DNA of 64,000 nucleotides. Source: Bacteroidetes bacterium endosymbiont of Geopemphigus sp. Lineage in GTDB: Bacteria > Bacteroidota > Bacteroidia > Flavobacteriales > Blattabacteriaceae. The stretch covers positions 81,369 to 145,368 of the forward strand of contig NZ_PEIH01000004.1 of NCBI RefSeq assembly GCF_002904345.1, written 5' to 3'. This document shows positions 9,251-48,050 of this stretch, piece by piece. The notes beneath the pieces were generated by a model, which saw only the letters and a list, made by a program, of their open reading frames with translations, made no database searches and was not told where the DNA came from. Each line of letters starts with the position of its first letter. Within the stretch, counting starts at the first letter, position 1. Made by a program: the position numbers and the translations under genes.

Positions 9251-10235
9251 AACATATGTTTATAAAAAGTAGCTCGTAAGAAAAATTCAAGCAATAAAAC
9301 AGCAAGAGCAAAGCAGGCAAAGTACTCTTGATAAGCATAATTCGACTGCCGAGAGAGAAGGGATTTATCAAGATAATCAATCTCTTGATAGATTTCTTGT
9401 AAGCGTTTATTATCTAGTAGCCCTGAAATATTTACCCTGTGTTTTTGGGCGATTTCTTTCAAAAGATCTTCGTCAATTTCCACCGGTTGTCTTTCATACT
9501 GAATTTCGCCGGTAGCCGATATGATACAAGCCAGAAAAAGAGCTTTGCCATTAATACCTATTCCGTATAGTATATACTTTAATGCCATAGCGAGAAGCAA
9601 GATCCATGGTTGCTTTGTGGTCTACAAAACCATCATTGTTCACCCTATCGGTCATTAAAAGAATGATCTTGCTTTTAAGTGGTGATGTTTCTAAGGTGAT
9701 TTACTACTATACCAAGAGCATCTCCTAAAGCCGTGCCTCTGTTAAGCTCGCGGGTATGCAGTAAACTCACTTCGTGAGATAGCGCTTCTATGTCAGAGGT
9801 AAGAGGAATTTTTACAAGAACTTCACCGGAAAAGGCAAATAAGACGATACGATCGCTTTTTCACTCGTTTACAAAGTACAAGGCTTCTTGTTTTAGAACA
9901 CTTAAGTGGTTAGAAAATCCTTAGCTAACATGCTTAGATACATCAGTCACGAGTATGTCTATACCATTATCGATAGCCGGGTACATCAGATGCATTTTTT
10001 GCGAGAGGGCCAGAGCGAGGAATAGTAAAGCGAACGCCAAACGAAAAATATTTAATAAAGATCTTTGCCTTAATAAAAAACCTGGACGAATATCAGAAAA
10101 AGGCCCCAAGTTCGGAAGCGACAGAGAAGGATTTGAAGAGTGATAAAAAAACATATACTTTACAAGAAAAGGTATAAGGGCAAAAGCCAATAAAAAAACA
10201 GGTGATGGAAAGTTGAGAATTTTCCTCGATGACAT
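9247..10235 (-). pseudogene. batA: batA (vWFA/MIDAS membrane protein), pseudogene
   Basis: The N-terminus ([15 protein letters not shown]...RLAFALLFLALALSQ) matches the two hydrophobic segments of BatA, followed by NGIDILVTDVSKHVS, a damaged D-x-S-x-S MIDAS motif. After frame shifts the vWA core is visible as SDRIVLFAFSGE and TSDIEALSHEV. The last 117 codons (9600-9247) are open and clearly BatA: RQPVEIDEDLLKEIAQKHRV, LQEIYQEIDYLDKS and a terminal helix. There are at least three lesions. The gene immediately abuts the moxR remnant, so DUF58, normally between them, has been deleted. Confidence 0.8.
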
Positions 10236-15789: not shown

Positions 15790-16785
15790 ATGGTTTTTAT
15801 AGGAGATTTAAAATTAAACGATTTTCCGCTAATTCTCGCGCCCATGGAGGATGTGAGTGACCCCCCCTTTCGTCGCTTGTGTAAAGAAGAAGGCGCTGAT
15901 TTGATGTTCACTGAATTTATCTCTATAGAAGGATTGATTCGACATGCGGAAAAAAGCGTCAAAAAGCTCGATATTTTCGAATACGAACGCCCTATAGGTA
16001 TTCAGATTTTTGGTGCTGAACGAGAAGCTATGATAGAAGCTACGGAAATCATCAACGAGCAAAAACCTGATATTATAGATATTAATTTTGGATGTCCGGT
16101 AAAAAAAGTAGTTTGTAAAGGTGCAGGGGCGGCTATTCTTAAGGATATCGACAAAATGATTTCCTTAGCTAAAGCCGTGGTAGAGCATACCTCTTTGCCG
16201 GTAACGGTTAAAACTCGTCTGGGTTGGGATGAGCAGACTATAAAAATTGAGGAAGTGGCAGAACGACTACAAGATGTTGGCATACTAGCGATTTCCATTC
16301 ACGGAAGGACCCGCGCGCAAATGTATAAGGGTAAGGCCAACTGGAGCAGAATCGCTACTGTAAAAAATCATCCTCGCATAAAAATACCGATATTCGGAAA
16401 CGGCGATGTGGACAGCCCGGAAAAAGCCTTGGAGATGAAAGATAAATATGGACTCGACGGGGTGATGATTGGCAGAGCAGCCATAGGATACCCATGGATC
16501 TTCAGAGAGATCAAACATTTTCTTCTTACAGGGGAAAAACTTTCCACTCCAAGCTTAGAAGAGCGGATAAATGCAGTTAAAAAACACCTCAGATGGACCA
16601 TAGAATGGAAAGGTGAGCGACTCGGGCTACTGGAGATGCGCCGCCATTACGGCAATTATTTTAAAAGTCTCCCTAATATAAAGCCTTTTCGTCAGCAACT
16701 CATTATCACCTCCGCTTATGTGGAGGTGATGGCAAACCTTGAGAAAATTTTAGCTACTGCAAAAGAATTTACCAAAACAGAATAA
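15790..16785 (+). CDS. dus: tRNA-dihydrouridine synthase
   Basis: FMN- and NADPH-dependent reduction of uridine in tRNA D-loops. It is a TIM barrel with the N-terminal LAPMEDVSDPPFRRLC motif and the catalytic cysteine C102 in DINFGCPVKK. FMN phosphate-binding elements GNGDVDS and DGVMIGRAAIG are present, followed by the C-terminal helical tRNA-binding domain. Length 331 matches the DusB type. It diverges from atpB, 88 bases away. No damage is seen. Confidence 0.92.
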   Translation: MVFIGDLKLNDFPLILAPMEDVSDPPFRRLCKEEGADLMFTEFISIEGLIRHAEKSVKKLDIFEYERPIGIQIFGAEREAMIEATEIINEQKPDIIDINFGCPVKKVVCKGAGAAILKDIDKMISLAKAVVEHTSLPVTVKTRLGWDEQTIKIEEVAERLQDVGILAISIHGRTRAQMYKGKANWSRIATVKNHPRIKIPIFGNGDVDSPEKALEMKDKYGLDGVMIGRAAIGYPWIFREIKHFLLTGEKLSTPSLEERINAVKKHLRWTIEWKGERLGLLEMRRHYGNYFKSLPNIKPFRQQLIITSAYVEVMANLEKILATAKEFTKTE

Positions 16786-17852
16786 CTAATACCATTAAAA
16801 TTTATTTATTTTATAAAATAAAATGCTAATCATGCGTATTTGTCAGAATAAATAACCTCCATAGATTTCATAAGCTCTCAGCAAGATTAATCTCCTCCTA
16901 AATCTATCTTAGATTCTTAAAGAGAACAAAGCTCAAATATCAAGATACGAACTCACATTATTATCAACTTCGTTATTGGGATGTAAAAATGCGACGTGCT
17001 AGAAAATATCCCCGGCTCATCAAAAGAACTTGATCAATACCACTCTTAAAAAGCTTTGAGTTTATCTTTTTGAACGCATGAATTAGGATGATGTAACAGT
17101 AAATCTGATAAATCGTGGAACAATAAAGACAGTAAATGAGTTCTTTATTAGATCTTAATGAGAGATACAAGTCTATATCTGTAAAATAGTGAATACAAGA
17201 ATAAAGAAAGTGGCCGCTCTTGGTAAAGGGAAATAAAAACAAGTTGCTTTCAAGTAACATTATAAGGGACTAGAAAACCACTTCAGATAAAATCTAAGGC
17301 TTTTGAAAGCTATAAGAACACTAAGCTAGAGTTCACCGATATCCATTATCCATCTCTCTTTTCACAAGGAATTTACAGAGTATTTAAGTAAGAAAATATC
17401 CGATAAAGACCGGACGATCGACATAAAATATGAGCTACTTAAGGCAGGGAGAAGAGGTTTTAAAGGATAAGCCCTTAGGAACAAAGATAAACCCTATATA
17501 TATAGAGAAACAGCACACCGAAAAGCTCAGTAAAAAACAAAGTGTCATTAAACCTATAGATATAACTTCTTCGAGAGCATTACGGTACAGTTGTAAGGAG
17601 ATGTAAATCCAACTAAAGAGAATAAAATATCATCTTGTTAGTTAAAACATGGAGCAGCATTCCCAAATGAAAACCTTCATTTAACTCTTTGTGATGTTAA
17701 AAAGGTGTAAATATCTTATAAATTATATTTATATTAATTTTTTATTAAATAAATAGATATATAATTTTAATATATCAATTGCTATGCGATTTTAACATGC
17801 CTCTTAATTCATTTGTCTGAATTTTAATACTGATATAAAAAACTAAACTGAT
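16786..17852. other. Decayed region, possible membrane-protein relic on minus strand
   Basis: About 1.07 kb without an intact gene. On the minus strand from roughly 17700 to 16970 there are hydrophobic fragments in shifting frames (for example LMTLCFLLSFSVCCFSIYIG; ATFFILVFTILQI), which suggests an eroded multi-helix membrane protein. I could not assign a family. The 95-codon open frame at 16973-17260 has no recognisable motif. Confidence 0.35.
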
Positions 17853-18174
17853 ATGAAAAAACTAATAAGAAGAATACGAACAATATTTTGCATTATAATA
17901 AGCATAAACAGAAAAGACAAGGATAGACAAATCCAATTCCATAAGACTGTAAAATGATAAAATAGGTACTATGAAATCTCTTATTGATAAGGGATCTGAT
18001 ATAAATGCTCATAATAATCAAGGAAAATCCCAACTTCATTTAGCTGCTCAAATAGAAGCTGCACTAGCTCTTATTGCTAAGGGGGCCGACTCTACTATTC
18101 GGGATAATTCTGAAAAAACTGCCTCTGAAAAAGGCCTCTTCACATGGTCAAACAAAAATTTCCGCGTCAATTAA
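17853..18174 (+). pseudogene. Ankyrin-repeat protein with a frameshift
   Basis: ATG 17853 begins a basic, hydrophobic N-terminus (MKKLIRRIRTIFCIIISI), possibly a membrane anchor. The frame reads QFHKTVK and then hits a stop near 17954. One frame over, the text continues NDKIGTMKSLIDKGSDINAH, then NNQGKSQLHLAAQ and ALALIAKGADSTIRDNSEKT. These are two ankyrin units with the canonical LI-x-KGA/SD-x-N and G-x-S/T-x-LHLAA positions. A single-base shift at 17945-17955 separates the parts. Ankyrin proteins of intracellular symbionts often contact host proteins. It could be expressed only as the C-terminal part from ATG 17971. Confidence 0.7.
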
Positions 18175-18574
18175 AATATGACTTTATTAAAAATCGCCAA
18201 CCTCAAAAAGAGGATAAAAATTGCGGGTATAATGTAGCAGCTAACTTAAGATCTAATCAACACAACAAATCTTTCAAAATCTTAATCCATAGTAGAAAAG
18301 TTTACTACGCCTTCGGCAAGAAGGGATAGAAAAAAAGGATTTAATATTTAATAATATATACCATCATTACTCTAGTAAGTAATATAACGATATAATCATT
18401 TTTTATGCTCTTTCCTTTGTATATGATTAAATTAAAGTGTTCTAATGAAGAAGTCGAACCTATATACTTCTATTCTGTCAGGGTAGGGCGCTAAACCAGG
18501 TGAGATAAGTGTATCTGAAGAGACTTAAAATTGCAATGAGAAGCACAGATTATAACACATACATACAATATAAT
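18175..18574. other. Non-coding or decayed stretch
   Basis: About 400 bases between the ankyrin gene and the riboswitch. A 61-codon open frame at 18144-18329 overlaps the ankyrin end but has no family signature. Otherwise I see only short AT-rich sequence. Any promoter of the riboswitch transcript would lie in the last part. Confidence 0.4.
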
Positions 18575-18690
18575 TTATCAAGAAAGGTAAAGGGATTTGA
18601 CCCTGTTAAACGTTAGCAACCCTTTTTTTTAAAAGCAGATGCTTCTTCCGACCGAAAAAGTCTTTAACGGAAAAAAAGTAGAAAATAGTA
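18575..18690 (+). promoter_or_regulatory. SAM-I (S-box)-like riboswitch, probably degenerate
   Basis: The segment at 18575-18622 follows the S-box core: TTTATCAAGAAAGGTAAAGG, then GATTTGACCCTGTTAAACGTTAGCAACC. This compares with the consensus CTTATC-aGAG-GG-GAGGGA-TGGCCC--TGAA-CC-GCAACC. A second part, AGATGCTTCTTCCGACCG (18637-18654), resembles the GGTGCTAATTCC segment between P3 and P4. It stands about 100 nt before a cystathionine gamma-synthase/lyase pseudogene, a classic SAM-I target. Several helix positions look mutated and the closing P1 strand is weak, so it may no longer switch. Confidence 0.7.
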
Positions 18691-18793
18691 ATCTTACCTG
18701 TATTTATTTTTAATTTATCATCTTTCAATGGACGTTCTTTCCGTCTTTCATGATATATTAATTACTTCTCTAACATCAATACAATTATTAGCT

Positions 18794-19922
18794 ATGAAAA
18801 CAGAAACAGCCCTTCTCAGCGCTACCTATGTTGACACTCTGACTGGCGCCCTCTTAACACGCATCTACCAGACTTCCACCTATGTGCAGGAGGCTCCCGG
18901 GATAAACAAGGGATTTGATTATACAAGAACCAACAATCCCACAAGAAAGGTACTGGAAAAGCCTTATTTCGGACCTTGATGGCAGTTATACAGGTTTTTC
19001 CTTTACCTCAGGCATGGCAGCTATCGACGCTGTACTAAATTACTAAACGCAGGAGACAAAATCACTGCCATAGACGATATTTACGGAGGTGCCTACCGCT
19101 TACTCAATACGATTTACAAGCGGTTTGGGATAAATATAAAATTTATTGACACGAACACAATAGCGAAAATTTGATAAAAGCCATCACCCCTAAAACACGT
19201 ATGCTATAGCTGAAGTCTCCTACTAATTCCACTTTAAAAATCTCCGATATCAAAATCTTAGGAGAAATAGATCATCAACATAAGATTCAGGTAGTGGTAG
19301 ATAACACCTTTGCTTCTAGAATTTTACAACAACCATTAAATTTAGGCACGGATATCGTCGTTCACAGCGCGACAAAATATCTCTCTGGGTACTCCGATGT
19401 GCTTGCCGGATTGGTAGTGACCAAAGATCAAGAGACGGCTGAAAAATAAAGTATATCCAGAACGCCAGCGGCGCGGTATTGGCTCCTTTTGATTACTAAC
19501 TAAAACCCTTTGCGGTATTCAGACCATTTCTTTTCGCATAGAAAAACAATCGGAAAACGCCATGAAAATCGCTAAACATCTTCTTCAATCTCCCTTACAT
19601 TGACAAACTTTACATTAACAAGCTTTACTATCCCGGTCTACCCACGCATAAAAACCATAAGATCGCCACACGGCAACAAAAACGCTTTGGAGGATATAGC
19701 TTGGGTTTCAATTTGAAAAAAGCTTAGGAGACACCAAAAACCTCATCTGTCATCCAGAAAGTATGACACATAAATACCACTCCAGAGAGCGTCCGAAAAG
19801 TTGCCGGCATTCAGGACTCGCTCATACACATTTCCTGCGGTATAGAACACACAGAGGATCTTGTAGAGGATCTGAAAAATACATTTCATTCCGCTCTGAA
19901 AGTATTGGGAGAATCAGCTTGA
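18794..19922 (+). pseudogene. Cystathionine gamma-synthase/gamma-lyase family, pseudogene
   Basis: PLP-dependent trans-sulfuration enzyme of methionine or cysteine metabolism. From ATG 18794 the frame reads TYVQEAPGINKGFDYTRTNN and PTRKVLE. After a shift come GFSFTSGMAAIDAVL, AGDKITAIDDIYGG, VVVDNTFASRILQQPLNLG, the PLP-lysine block HSATKYLSGYSDVLAG, then FGGYSLGFNLK and SCGIEHTEDLVEDLKN, ending at TGA 19920-19922. The order spans the full 380-residue family, with at least six frameshifts or stops. Its 3' end overlaps the cysS 3' end by 37 nt. It is the gene controlled by the adjacent S-box. Confidence 0.85.
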
Positions 19923-21568
19923 GTCTTTACGGAGGTCGTTCCGTCTCGGTTATCGCGGAGCGTATAGCCGAGCTTTAAGAGTTCATCTCGAATTTCATCT
20001 GAGAGCGACCAGTCTTTATTTCTGCGGGCTCTCTCACGTGTTCTGACGAGAATATTGAGCAATTCCTTGGATTTATCTGGATCAGGCGGTAATCTATTTA
20101 ATAAAGGGGATTTTGTTGAAGAATCTTCTGCTGAAAGCTCTTTCAATGAATAAGAGATCTTTGAAGATACCTTGATGGAGGAGAAATGTTTTTTAATATC
20201 AAAACTTAAGGATCTTTTTAATCTTACTAAAGGGCTTTCCAAGCCTAAAACCTCTGAACAAAAACTTTGCACAGTCGTTTTCAAAAAATTCAGATCAGAG
20301 GAACTTAAAGATGCTTTACCTTCAGAAATCGCCTCCATTAAAGGGTATATCTCAAAAAGATGGGCAATCAAGCGAGGGGTGTTGAAATCATCATTCATGG
20401 CTTCATAGCAACTCTCTCTCCATGATTGCACATCAAAGGTAGAGGTTTTACCTTCTTTTTTTGAAGACGAGAGCCTTTCCAGATCCAGGAAAGCCATCAT
20501 AAGTCGATTATAACCTTTTTCGGCGGCGACGAGCGCGCGGTTTGAAAAATCTAAAACACTGCGGTAATGGGTCTGCAGCATAAAAAAACGCACAACCTCA
20601 AAAGAAAAAGACCTTTCAAGAAAAGGATTTTCACCGGTGAAGATATCGAAGGGCAAAAGCATATTGCCGCTTGACTTGCTCATCTTCTGACCGTTAATGG
20701 TAAGCATATTGGTGTGCATCCAATAGTTTACGGAACTTTTTCCGTAAGCTCCTTGCGCTTGCGCGAGTTCACATTCGTGATGAGGAAATTTTAAATCCAT
20801 ACCGCCCCCGTGAATATCAAAAACCTCCCCTAGATATTTCGTGCTCATGGCGGTACATTCAATATGCCAGCCCGGAAAACCCTCTCCCCAGGGAGAAGGC
20901 CAGCGCATAATATGCCCTGGGGAGGCTCTTTTCCAAAGAGCAAAATCCTGCGAGTGTTTTTTTTCCTGCTGTCCTTTTAAAGCGCGCGTATTCACCAGAA
21001 GTTCTTCCATCTTGCGATGGCTTAAAACGCCATAGCTTTCATACTCGGGATTATTATCAACAAGCCGAGCGTAAGCCTGCAGATCAAAATAGACCGAACC
21101 TCCTGACTCATAAGCGAGCTCATGATCCATGAGTTTTTTAATAGTCTCAATCTGCTCTGAAATATGACCTGTAGCGGTAGGTTCTATATCAGGAGGCACA
21201 GTATTGAATGATAATAATATATCATGAAAATTAAGGGTATATTTCTGTACGAGCTCCATAGGCTCGAGACGCTCGAGACGAGCTCTTTTCGAGATTTTAT
21301 CCTCACCCTCCCCTGCTTCATCTTCTAAGTGACCTACATCGGTGATATTGCGCACATAACGCACCTTATAGCCTAAATGTCTGAAATAGCGAACTACCAG
21401 ATCGAAAGAAATAAAAGTACGGCAATTTCCCAGATGTACCCAATTATAAACTGTCGGACCACAGGTATATATCCCTACGGATCTCTTCACTACAGGTGTA
21501 AAAACTTCCTTTTGTCCACTAAGAGAATTGTATATTTTTATTTCCTGATGAGCCGGCTGATTTTGCAT
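19886..21568 (-). CDS. cysS: Cysteinyl-tRNA synthetase
   Basis: Class I synthetase charging tRNA-Cys. The zinc and HIGH region [18 protein letters not shown] is near residue 33, [10 protein letters not shown] and [10 protein letters not shown] supply further zinc ligands, and KMSKSSGN is exact. Length 560 is about 65 more than Bacteroidales homologues that I recall. A Ser/Lys-rich insert lies between VLGLESPL and [14 protein letters not shown] (roughly residues 440-500), and the C-terminus runs past the expected end into the neighbouring pseudogene. Core and anticodon-binding parts are otherwise intact. Confidence 0.93.
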
Positions 21569-26175: not shown

Positions 26176-26289
26176 TTTTAGAAGATGCTATTCTTAAGTC
26201 GAAGAGAAACTTTGTCTTTTTGTATCTTTATATTTTATTATCTCAAAGAGCATCTTTCCCATAATGGGAGAGTATAAATATTTTAACGT

Positions 26290-26935
26290 ATAATTATTAA
26301 AGACTTCAGTAAACAAGCTTCGATATTAAATCATCGCATTGCAGAACTTCGGGATGTTCAATTGGAGAAGGACTATAGGGTCTTTCATGAAAATCTCGAA
26401 AATATTGGTACTATTTTGGGATATGAACTGAGCAAATCCTTGAATTTTTTTCCGAAAAACGTCTCTACCCCTCTGGGTATAAAATCGATGGATATATTAA
26501 CTCAACAACCTTTTCTATGTATCATTCTCCGCGCGGGCCTTCTCCTACATACAGGTCTTTTAAGATTTTCATCAGGCAGAGACCGCTTTTATCTCTTTTT
26601 TCCGCCAGTATAAACAGAATGCTAAGAGTTTTGAAATCGTTGTGGATTATCCTCGCTACATCTTCTTTAGAAGGAAAATAGTAATCATCTTAGATCCTAT
26701 GCCTGCAGCAGGTGAGAGTTTGATAAATGTTTATAAGACTTTACAAAAATATGGCACACTGCATTCTCTTCATCTGGTTTTGGTGGTAGCAGCACACCCG
26801 GATATCGACTACATAAGAAAACATCTGCCCGAAAAAACCAAACTTTGGGTTGCTTCGATAGATGAAGAACTTAATGATAAGAGTTATATCGTTCCGGGTT
26901 TAGGCGATGCCGGTGATTTGGCTTTCGGAAAATGA
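26290..26935 (+). pseudogene. upp: Uracil phosphoribosyltransferase, frameshifted
   Basis: Salvages uracil with PRPP to UMP. Two long open blocks make up nearly the whole protein: FSKQASILNHRIAELRDVQL ... TPLGIKSMDILTQQ ... CIILRAGL, and after a single shift near 26570-26577, QAETAFISFFRQYKQNAKSF, the PRPP loop IILDPMPAAGESL and the uracil-binding PGLGDAGDLAFGK. The expected initiator is ATA at 26290 rather than ATG. The 3' end overlaps the asd 3' end by 36 nt. With one frameshift only, this is either a very young pseudogene or a sequencing artefact. Confidence 0.82.
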
Positions 26936-47119: not shown

Positions 47120-48050
47120 AGTGGTATAAATTTCCATTTTTTTTGCATAAAAATTGACGAGCTTGTGTTTTTAGGCAGACGCAAGGGATTTTGTTGACCT
47201 CCGGGAATAACACCCAAATTATACTAGAGATTGAGAAAAGTGAGTTCTTCACGTGAAATTTCGAGTTCCTTAGTCAGAATACCCAGGTGTATTTTTTTCA
47301 TGAATCGTAACTGAAGCTATCTGATTAGCTCACAGGTAGATTTTCAGCTTCGATATGATGCTCTTTATAGTAATCATCACATAGTTGATCGCAATGAATT
47401 TGGGGATATAATTTCTGGTTTCTTTAGGAAGAGTTTTGCTAAGTTCCCGAAAATCACGCGTTCCCTGACGACTTATCGCACGAACGGTTCCGGTCCCGGA
47501 ATTGTAAGCTGCTAAAACAAAAATGCCCAGTTTCCCAGATGTTAAATATCGGTCGGCTGCTTCCGTAGATTTTACCGGATCGTTTCTATCATCATGTAAG
47601 GTATTTTATTGAGGTCATACATGCGTCCCGTCGCTGGCATGAATTTCCATAAACCATGAGTTCCTGCTGCGCTAGAGGTAATTCGTGAATTCAGATTTGA
47701 CTCCACAATAGCTAGGTACTTTAATTCTTTGGGAATATTGTACTTTTCCAGTGCCCTTTTAAACAAGGAGGAATAAAATTCAGCTAACGAAAATATTTTC
47801 CCATATGCTTTCTTATTCTTAGGTAACTTTCCACGACAGCATGTACCGATCCGGTATATATGAAAATATTCATTTTACATAACTGCTAGAGTTTTTTAAG
47901 GTGCTCTTTGAGTTGATCAGGACTTATGTATAGTTATTGATAGTGTTCTTGTTTTCTTTTTTTGAGAAAAGCCTCGACTCCTGAAATCCATCCTTCCATA
48001 GGTCTATGTATATAAAGAATATATTGAAGATCAGATCAATTCATAATCAA
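47120..48050 (-). pseudogene. MltD-like lytic transglycosylase, pseudogene
   Basis: The clean block at 47766-47572 is an SLT domain: LEKYNIPKELKYLAIVESNL, then NSRITSSAAGTHGLWKFMPA and TGRMYDLNKI, with the catalytic glutamate in AIVESNL. Upstream fragments (SPDQLKEHLKKL; IYTGSVHAVVESYLRI) match the N-terminal MltD region. Downstream are KTLPKETRNYIPKFIAINYV and LNISREELTFLNL...VIPGGQQNPLRLP. The protein would cleave peptidoglycan at the outer membrane. There are many stops and shifts. Confidence 0.82.

Follow-up and report, generated by a model that had tools for sequence, protein, structure and literature searches.

The ankyrin-repeat locus at positions 17853–18174 is most probably (probability roughly 0.88) a pseudogene, the non-functional remnant of a gene for a short exported protein with ankyrin repeats, left over from the ankyrin gene set of a decaying genome. 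Positions refer to the window, the whole 64,000-nucleotide stretch that was analyzed (G000:C1:81369-145368), which lies in a 1,317,719-base genome assembled into 5 contigs and 92% complete. The reading frame is interrupted and there is further damage, as is usual for a pseudogene, with the lesions gauged against paralogues within the same genome. The locus is best read as an ordinary decayed member of a known ankyrin-repeat kind, belonging to a set of ankyrin lipoproteins under loss. Its features are listed in Table 1.

Table 1. Features of the ankyrin-repeat locus, with positions counted from the first nucleotide of the window.
Feature	Position	Strand	Description
Piece 1	17853–17954	+	34 codons from ATG 17853, stop at 17955; signal-like N-terminus and first residues of an ankyrin unit
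Piece 2	17953–18174	+	+1 frame; rest of first unit, shortened second unit and C-terminal end; first ATG 17971, stop 18172–18174
Ank_2 match from own-genome search	17965–18105 (G000:C1:99333-99473)	+	E 3.9e-4, 21.3 bits

The initial annotation described an ankyrin gene whose two halves are separated by a single base, and the one-base frame change is real: piece 2 lies in the +1 frame relative to piece 1 (17853–17954), is free of stop codons from 17953 to 18171, and shares only a few bases of overlap with it. An Rfam search of 16000–20500 returned nothing at gathering score.

Ankyrin units in the gene were likewise borne out, with profile scores that fall below the family cut-offs. Piece 2 matches Ank_2 (Pfam PF12796) at E 5.3e-4 and 20.9 bits, under the 27.3-bit cut-off, and PF00023 at E 0.0054 and 17.4 bits, under the cut-off of 21.1. 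Ankyrin chains in the PDB match its residues from about 7 to 59 as one continuous stretch, in a match list whose lowest E-values add up many repeats of the matched chain. The PDB and own-genome searches thus both support ankyrin homology for piece 2.

The two halves also appear to be parts of one gene. In an alignment with a 580-residue paralogue, piece 1 ends and piece 2 begins at consecutive ankyrin positions, with no gap between them. The 13 C-terminal residues of piece 1 were scored in fixed register against 17 units from the other ankyrin loci of the genome and reached 4.6. Of 20,000 stop-free stretches drawn at random from the window (mean −12.7, standard deviation 4.3), 6 scored as high; this figure is somewhat optimistic, as the register alignment had been seen before the test. 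Shuffled sequences scored as high in 11 of 20,000 cases, and the remaining two frames at the same place gave −9.7 and −16.2. Mutual scores among real units run from −0.1 to 18.8, which places the end of piece 1 among the ankyrin units, if as a poor one.

To speak of a single frameshift understates the damage, which includes a second unit three residues short, a missing lipobox cysteine and a fragmented gene next door. The distance from LH to LI in the second unit is 10 residues, compared to 13, 13, 13, and 15 in the 580-residue paralogue, and the PDB alignments set 52 query residues against 55. In the first unit the 13-residue spacing appears only when it is counted through the frame change. 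The N-terminus of piece 1 had been called membrane-anchor-like; it does have a short hydrophobic stretch, and it aligns loosely with four lipoprotein-type paralogous N-termini (26% identity to the first). A lipobox motif has a cysteine after the hydrophobic stretch, and by this weak alignment (26% identity) three of the four paralogous N-termini have one at that place while piece 1 has none, so that the likeness to a lipoprotein anchor holds only in part. The frame change is the sole lesion that disables the gene alone; the three-residue shortening and the loss of the cysteine could be tolerated.

Searching the genome with piece 1 found no copy besides itself. A DNA search of the same genome with 16786–18727 gave 11 rows; none of the other 10 lies over 17853–18174, so this search revealed no second copy of the locus. 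Those of the rows at about 17.70–17.77 kb fall in AT-rich DNA.

A search of the genome for more ankyrin genes and intact paralogues, proposed in the initial annotation, gave 23 rows for Ank_2 at E ≤ 0.01; grouped by position, they make up 16 loci. Only one has a long frame, the 580-residue one (overlapping G000:C1:182964-183470), which is unbroken and has a lipoprotein-like start and five repeats; at the other 15 the longest frame is 57–145 residues. Among Ank_2 rows at E ≤ 0.001, 16 of 18 from this genome lie in frames shorter than 150 residues, vs. 4 of 54 from relatives of the same order. Separately, a 200-residue open frame at another place in the genome (L123; G000:C1:58859-58876, minus strand) has an FSCND lipoprotein-type start like those of the ankyrin paralogues; no ankyrin unit was spotted in it by eye.

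None of 60 further genomes from the family has an Ank_2 row, and 9 of 39 order relatives do. The family comparison partly reflects size, as the 60 family genomes are 0.2–0.6 Mb, a quarter to half of this one. The domain is not rare as such, being present in 5 of 14 control genomes. Searching 60 genomes with piece 2 (E ≤ 0.01) matched three, namely this one and two of the order, the latter at 37–38% identity and in frames of 172 and 454 residues. Gene order was checked in the best 80 of 592 relatives’ loci, all from distant Bacteroidota: none matches piece 2, the 580-residue protein, cysS or atpB, and hence no orthologous site, intact or otherwise, was found in this set, in which one locus matches the fragment of a PLP-dependent enzyme that was also searched with.

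The locus can be compared with three known arrangements. It shares with the 580-residue ankyrin lipoprotein-like gene the spacing of the first unit, KDKD before the unit, LIDKG within it, an M-K-K start and a hydrophobic stretch; that gene, however, has five repeats, a long N-terminal part, an unbroken frame and a cysteine at the lipobox place, whereas the locus studied here consists of about two units and lacks that cysteine. The 172-residue ankyrin frame of the order relative (G038:C1, locus L036) is also short, begins with a signal-like stretch and ends alike at the C-terminus, but is longer and unbroken. It matches residues 7–66 of piece 2 at 37% identity and an E-value of only 3.5e-4, which does not establish it as an orthologue. 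The third comparison is with Wolbachia, which belongs to a different phylum. There, too, many ankyrin genes occur within one reduced symbiont genome, 23 to 60 per strain as reported in PMC3563639; the present genome differs in that 15 of its 16 ankyrin loci have short frames only.

We also considered the Dot/Icm ankyrin effectors (NCBIfam T4SS_Ank models) and rejected them, as piece 2 reaches 20.1 of 600 bits, far under the curated cut-off. The 580-residue paralogue scores 111.7 of 600 bits against T4SS_AnkY; we read these scores as general repeat similarity. This long-framed protein has the look of a lipoprotein that is exported, which does not speak for an effector injected into a host.

The locus probably descends from a lipoprotein gene whose product carried a signal peptide and two or more repeats. 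Ankyrin units in general act as protein binders, and in a small exported protein of this kind they would have bound another protein. Selection may then have been lost, with drift and damage following. In the gene as it stands the frame is gone, as is part of a repeat, and the export signal is probably gone as well, so most likely no mechanism is left and no useful product would be made now. The initial annotation had offered a young pseudogene as one possibility. Pseudogene is the best-supported reading; a young age is not supported, because the damage goes beyond the frame change, both here (the short unit and missing cysteine) and in the fragmented neighbor and the 14 further ankyrin loci whose frames are all short.

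Among the other readings, a single-base error of sequencing or assembly within an otherwise working small ankyrin gene would fit frames that lie one base apart with the register otherwise intact. It could account for the frame change itself, but for nothing beyond that base: the shortened unit, the missing cysteine, the 14 other short-framed ankyrin loci and the fragmented neighbor are left unexplained. The junction has no long homopolymer, and the 39 frames of at least 140 residues that cover 65% of the window indicate that frame errors are not everywhere. We consider this reading very unlikely. A phase-variable switch, in which slippage at the junction toggles the protein on and off, would in its off state show just such a one-base frame change, close to the beginning of a surface-type protein. 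The annotation had placed the change in a homopolymer-like stretch; however, the longest run in 17940–17960 is only AAAA, a commonplace one (483 A runs of exactly four on the plus strand of the window), and there is no simple repeat. Six-A runs do occur in the gene at 17856 and 18113, both distant from the junction, and they too are commonplace (96 runs of exactly six in the window). With no run longer than AAAA and no short tandem repeat tract at the frame change, where a long simple repeat would be usual, a slippage switch is not supported; we rejected the class of phase-variable (contingency) genes and regard this reading as extremely improbable.

The locus might instead still work, either as a 67-residue mini-ankyrin or through programmed +1 frameshifting, which would fuse the two pieces as they are translated. 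Piece 2 is indeed open for 67 codons from ATG 17971, and the small overlap of the frames means that a shift would have to happen right at the stop. Yet a product from that ATG would have at most 67 residues and no signal peptide, and its repeats, of which one is shortened, would not add up to two complete ones; we know of no +1 shift site that the junction resembles; and the arrangement occurs in no relative among the 60 genomes searched, the two order matches being only 37–38% identical. Continued function is accordingly very unlikely. A broader version, in which the lineage formerly had a large exported ankyrin set, unlike all sampled members of its family, and is now losing it while 17971–18174 is perhaps still expressed as a mini-ankyrin with a leftover host-directed role, is likewise very improbable.

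As a pseudogene the locus carries little weight alone. Taken with the 15 of 16 short-framed loci and the 0 of 60 family genomes with Ank_2, it points to a lineage losing its ankyrin set during genome reduction, and such a lineage could help to date and order ankyrin losses.

The gene that follows the locus, for a Cys/Met metabolism PLP-dependent enzyme (18692–19446), has come apart into three fragments, matching parts 9–59, 84–129, and 144–220 of a 381-position profile. A Pfam check of 10 given frames of the window matched 9 and left 1 without a match; the M23 match spans its complete domain and gives no sign of decay.

Upstream of the locus, 16850–17158 is a decayed copy of a repeat that occurs as a family in this genome, 71–74% identical at the DNA level to G000:C4:770035 and C4:17376. 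Searching with the 141-residue frame of the best copy gave 11 rows, the query’s own place counted. We suspect an integrase-type mobile element; the best copy had no match in Pfam, PHROGs or NCBIfam. A further copy of this family sits near an ankyrin remnant elsewhere in the genome, which repeats the arrangement seen here (G000:C4:269704-269889 and C4:270143-270232). Ankyrin genes may have travelled with the element, but the pairs are few and this proximity could be due to chance. Elsewhere in the window, the uracil phosphoribosyltransferase (UPRTase) gene (26287–26932) and a transglycosylase SLT domain (47333–47874, minus strand) are each split over two frames, and a VWA fragment is present at 9678–9860.
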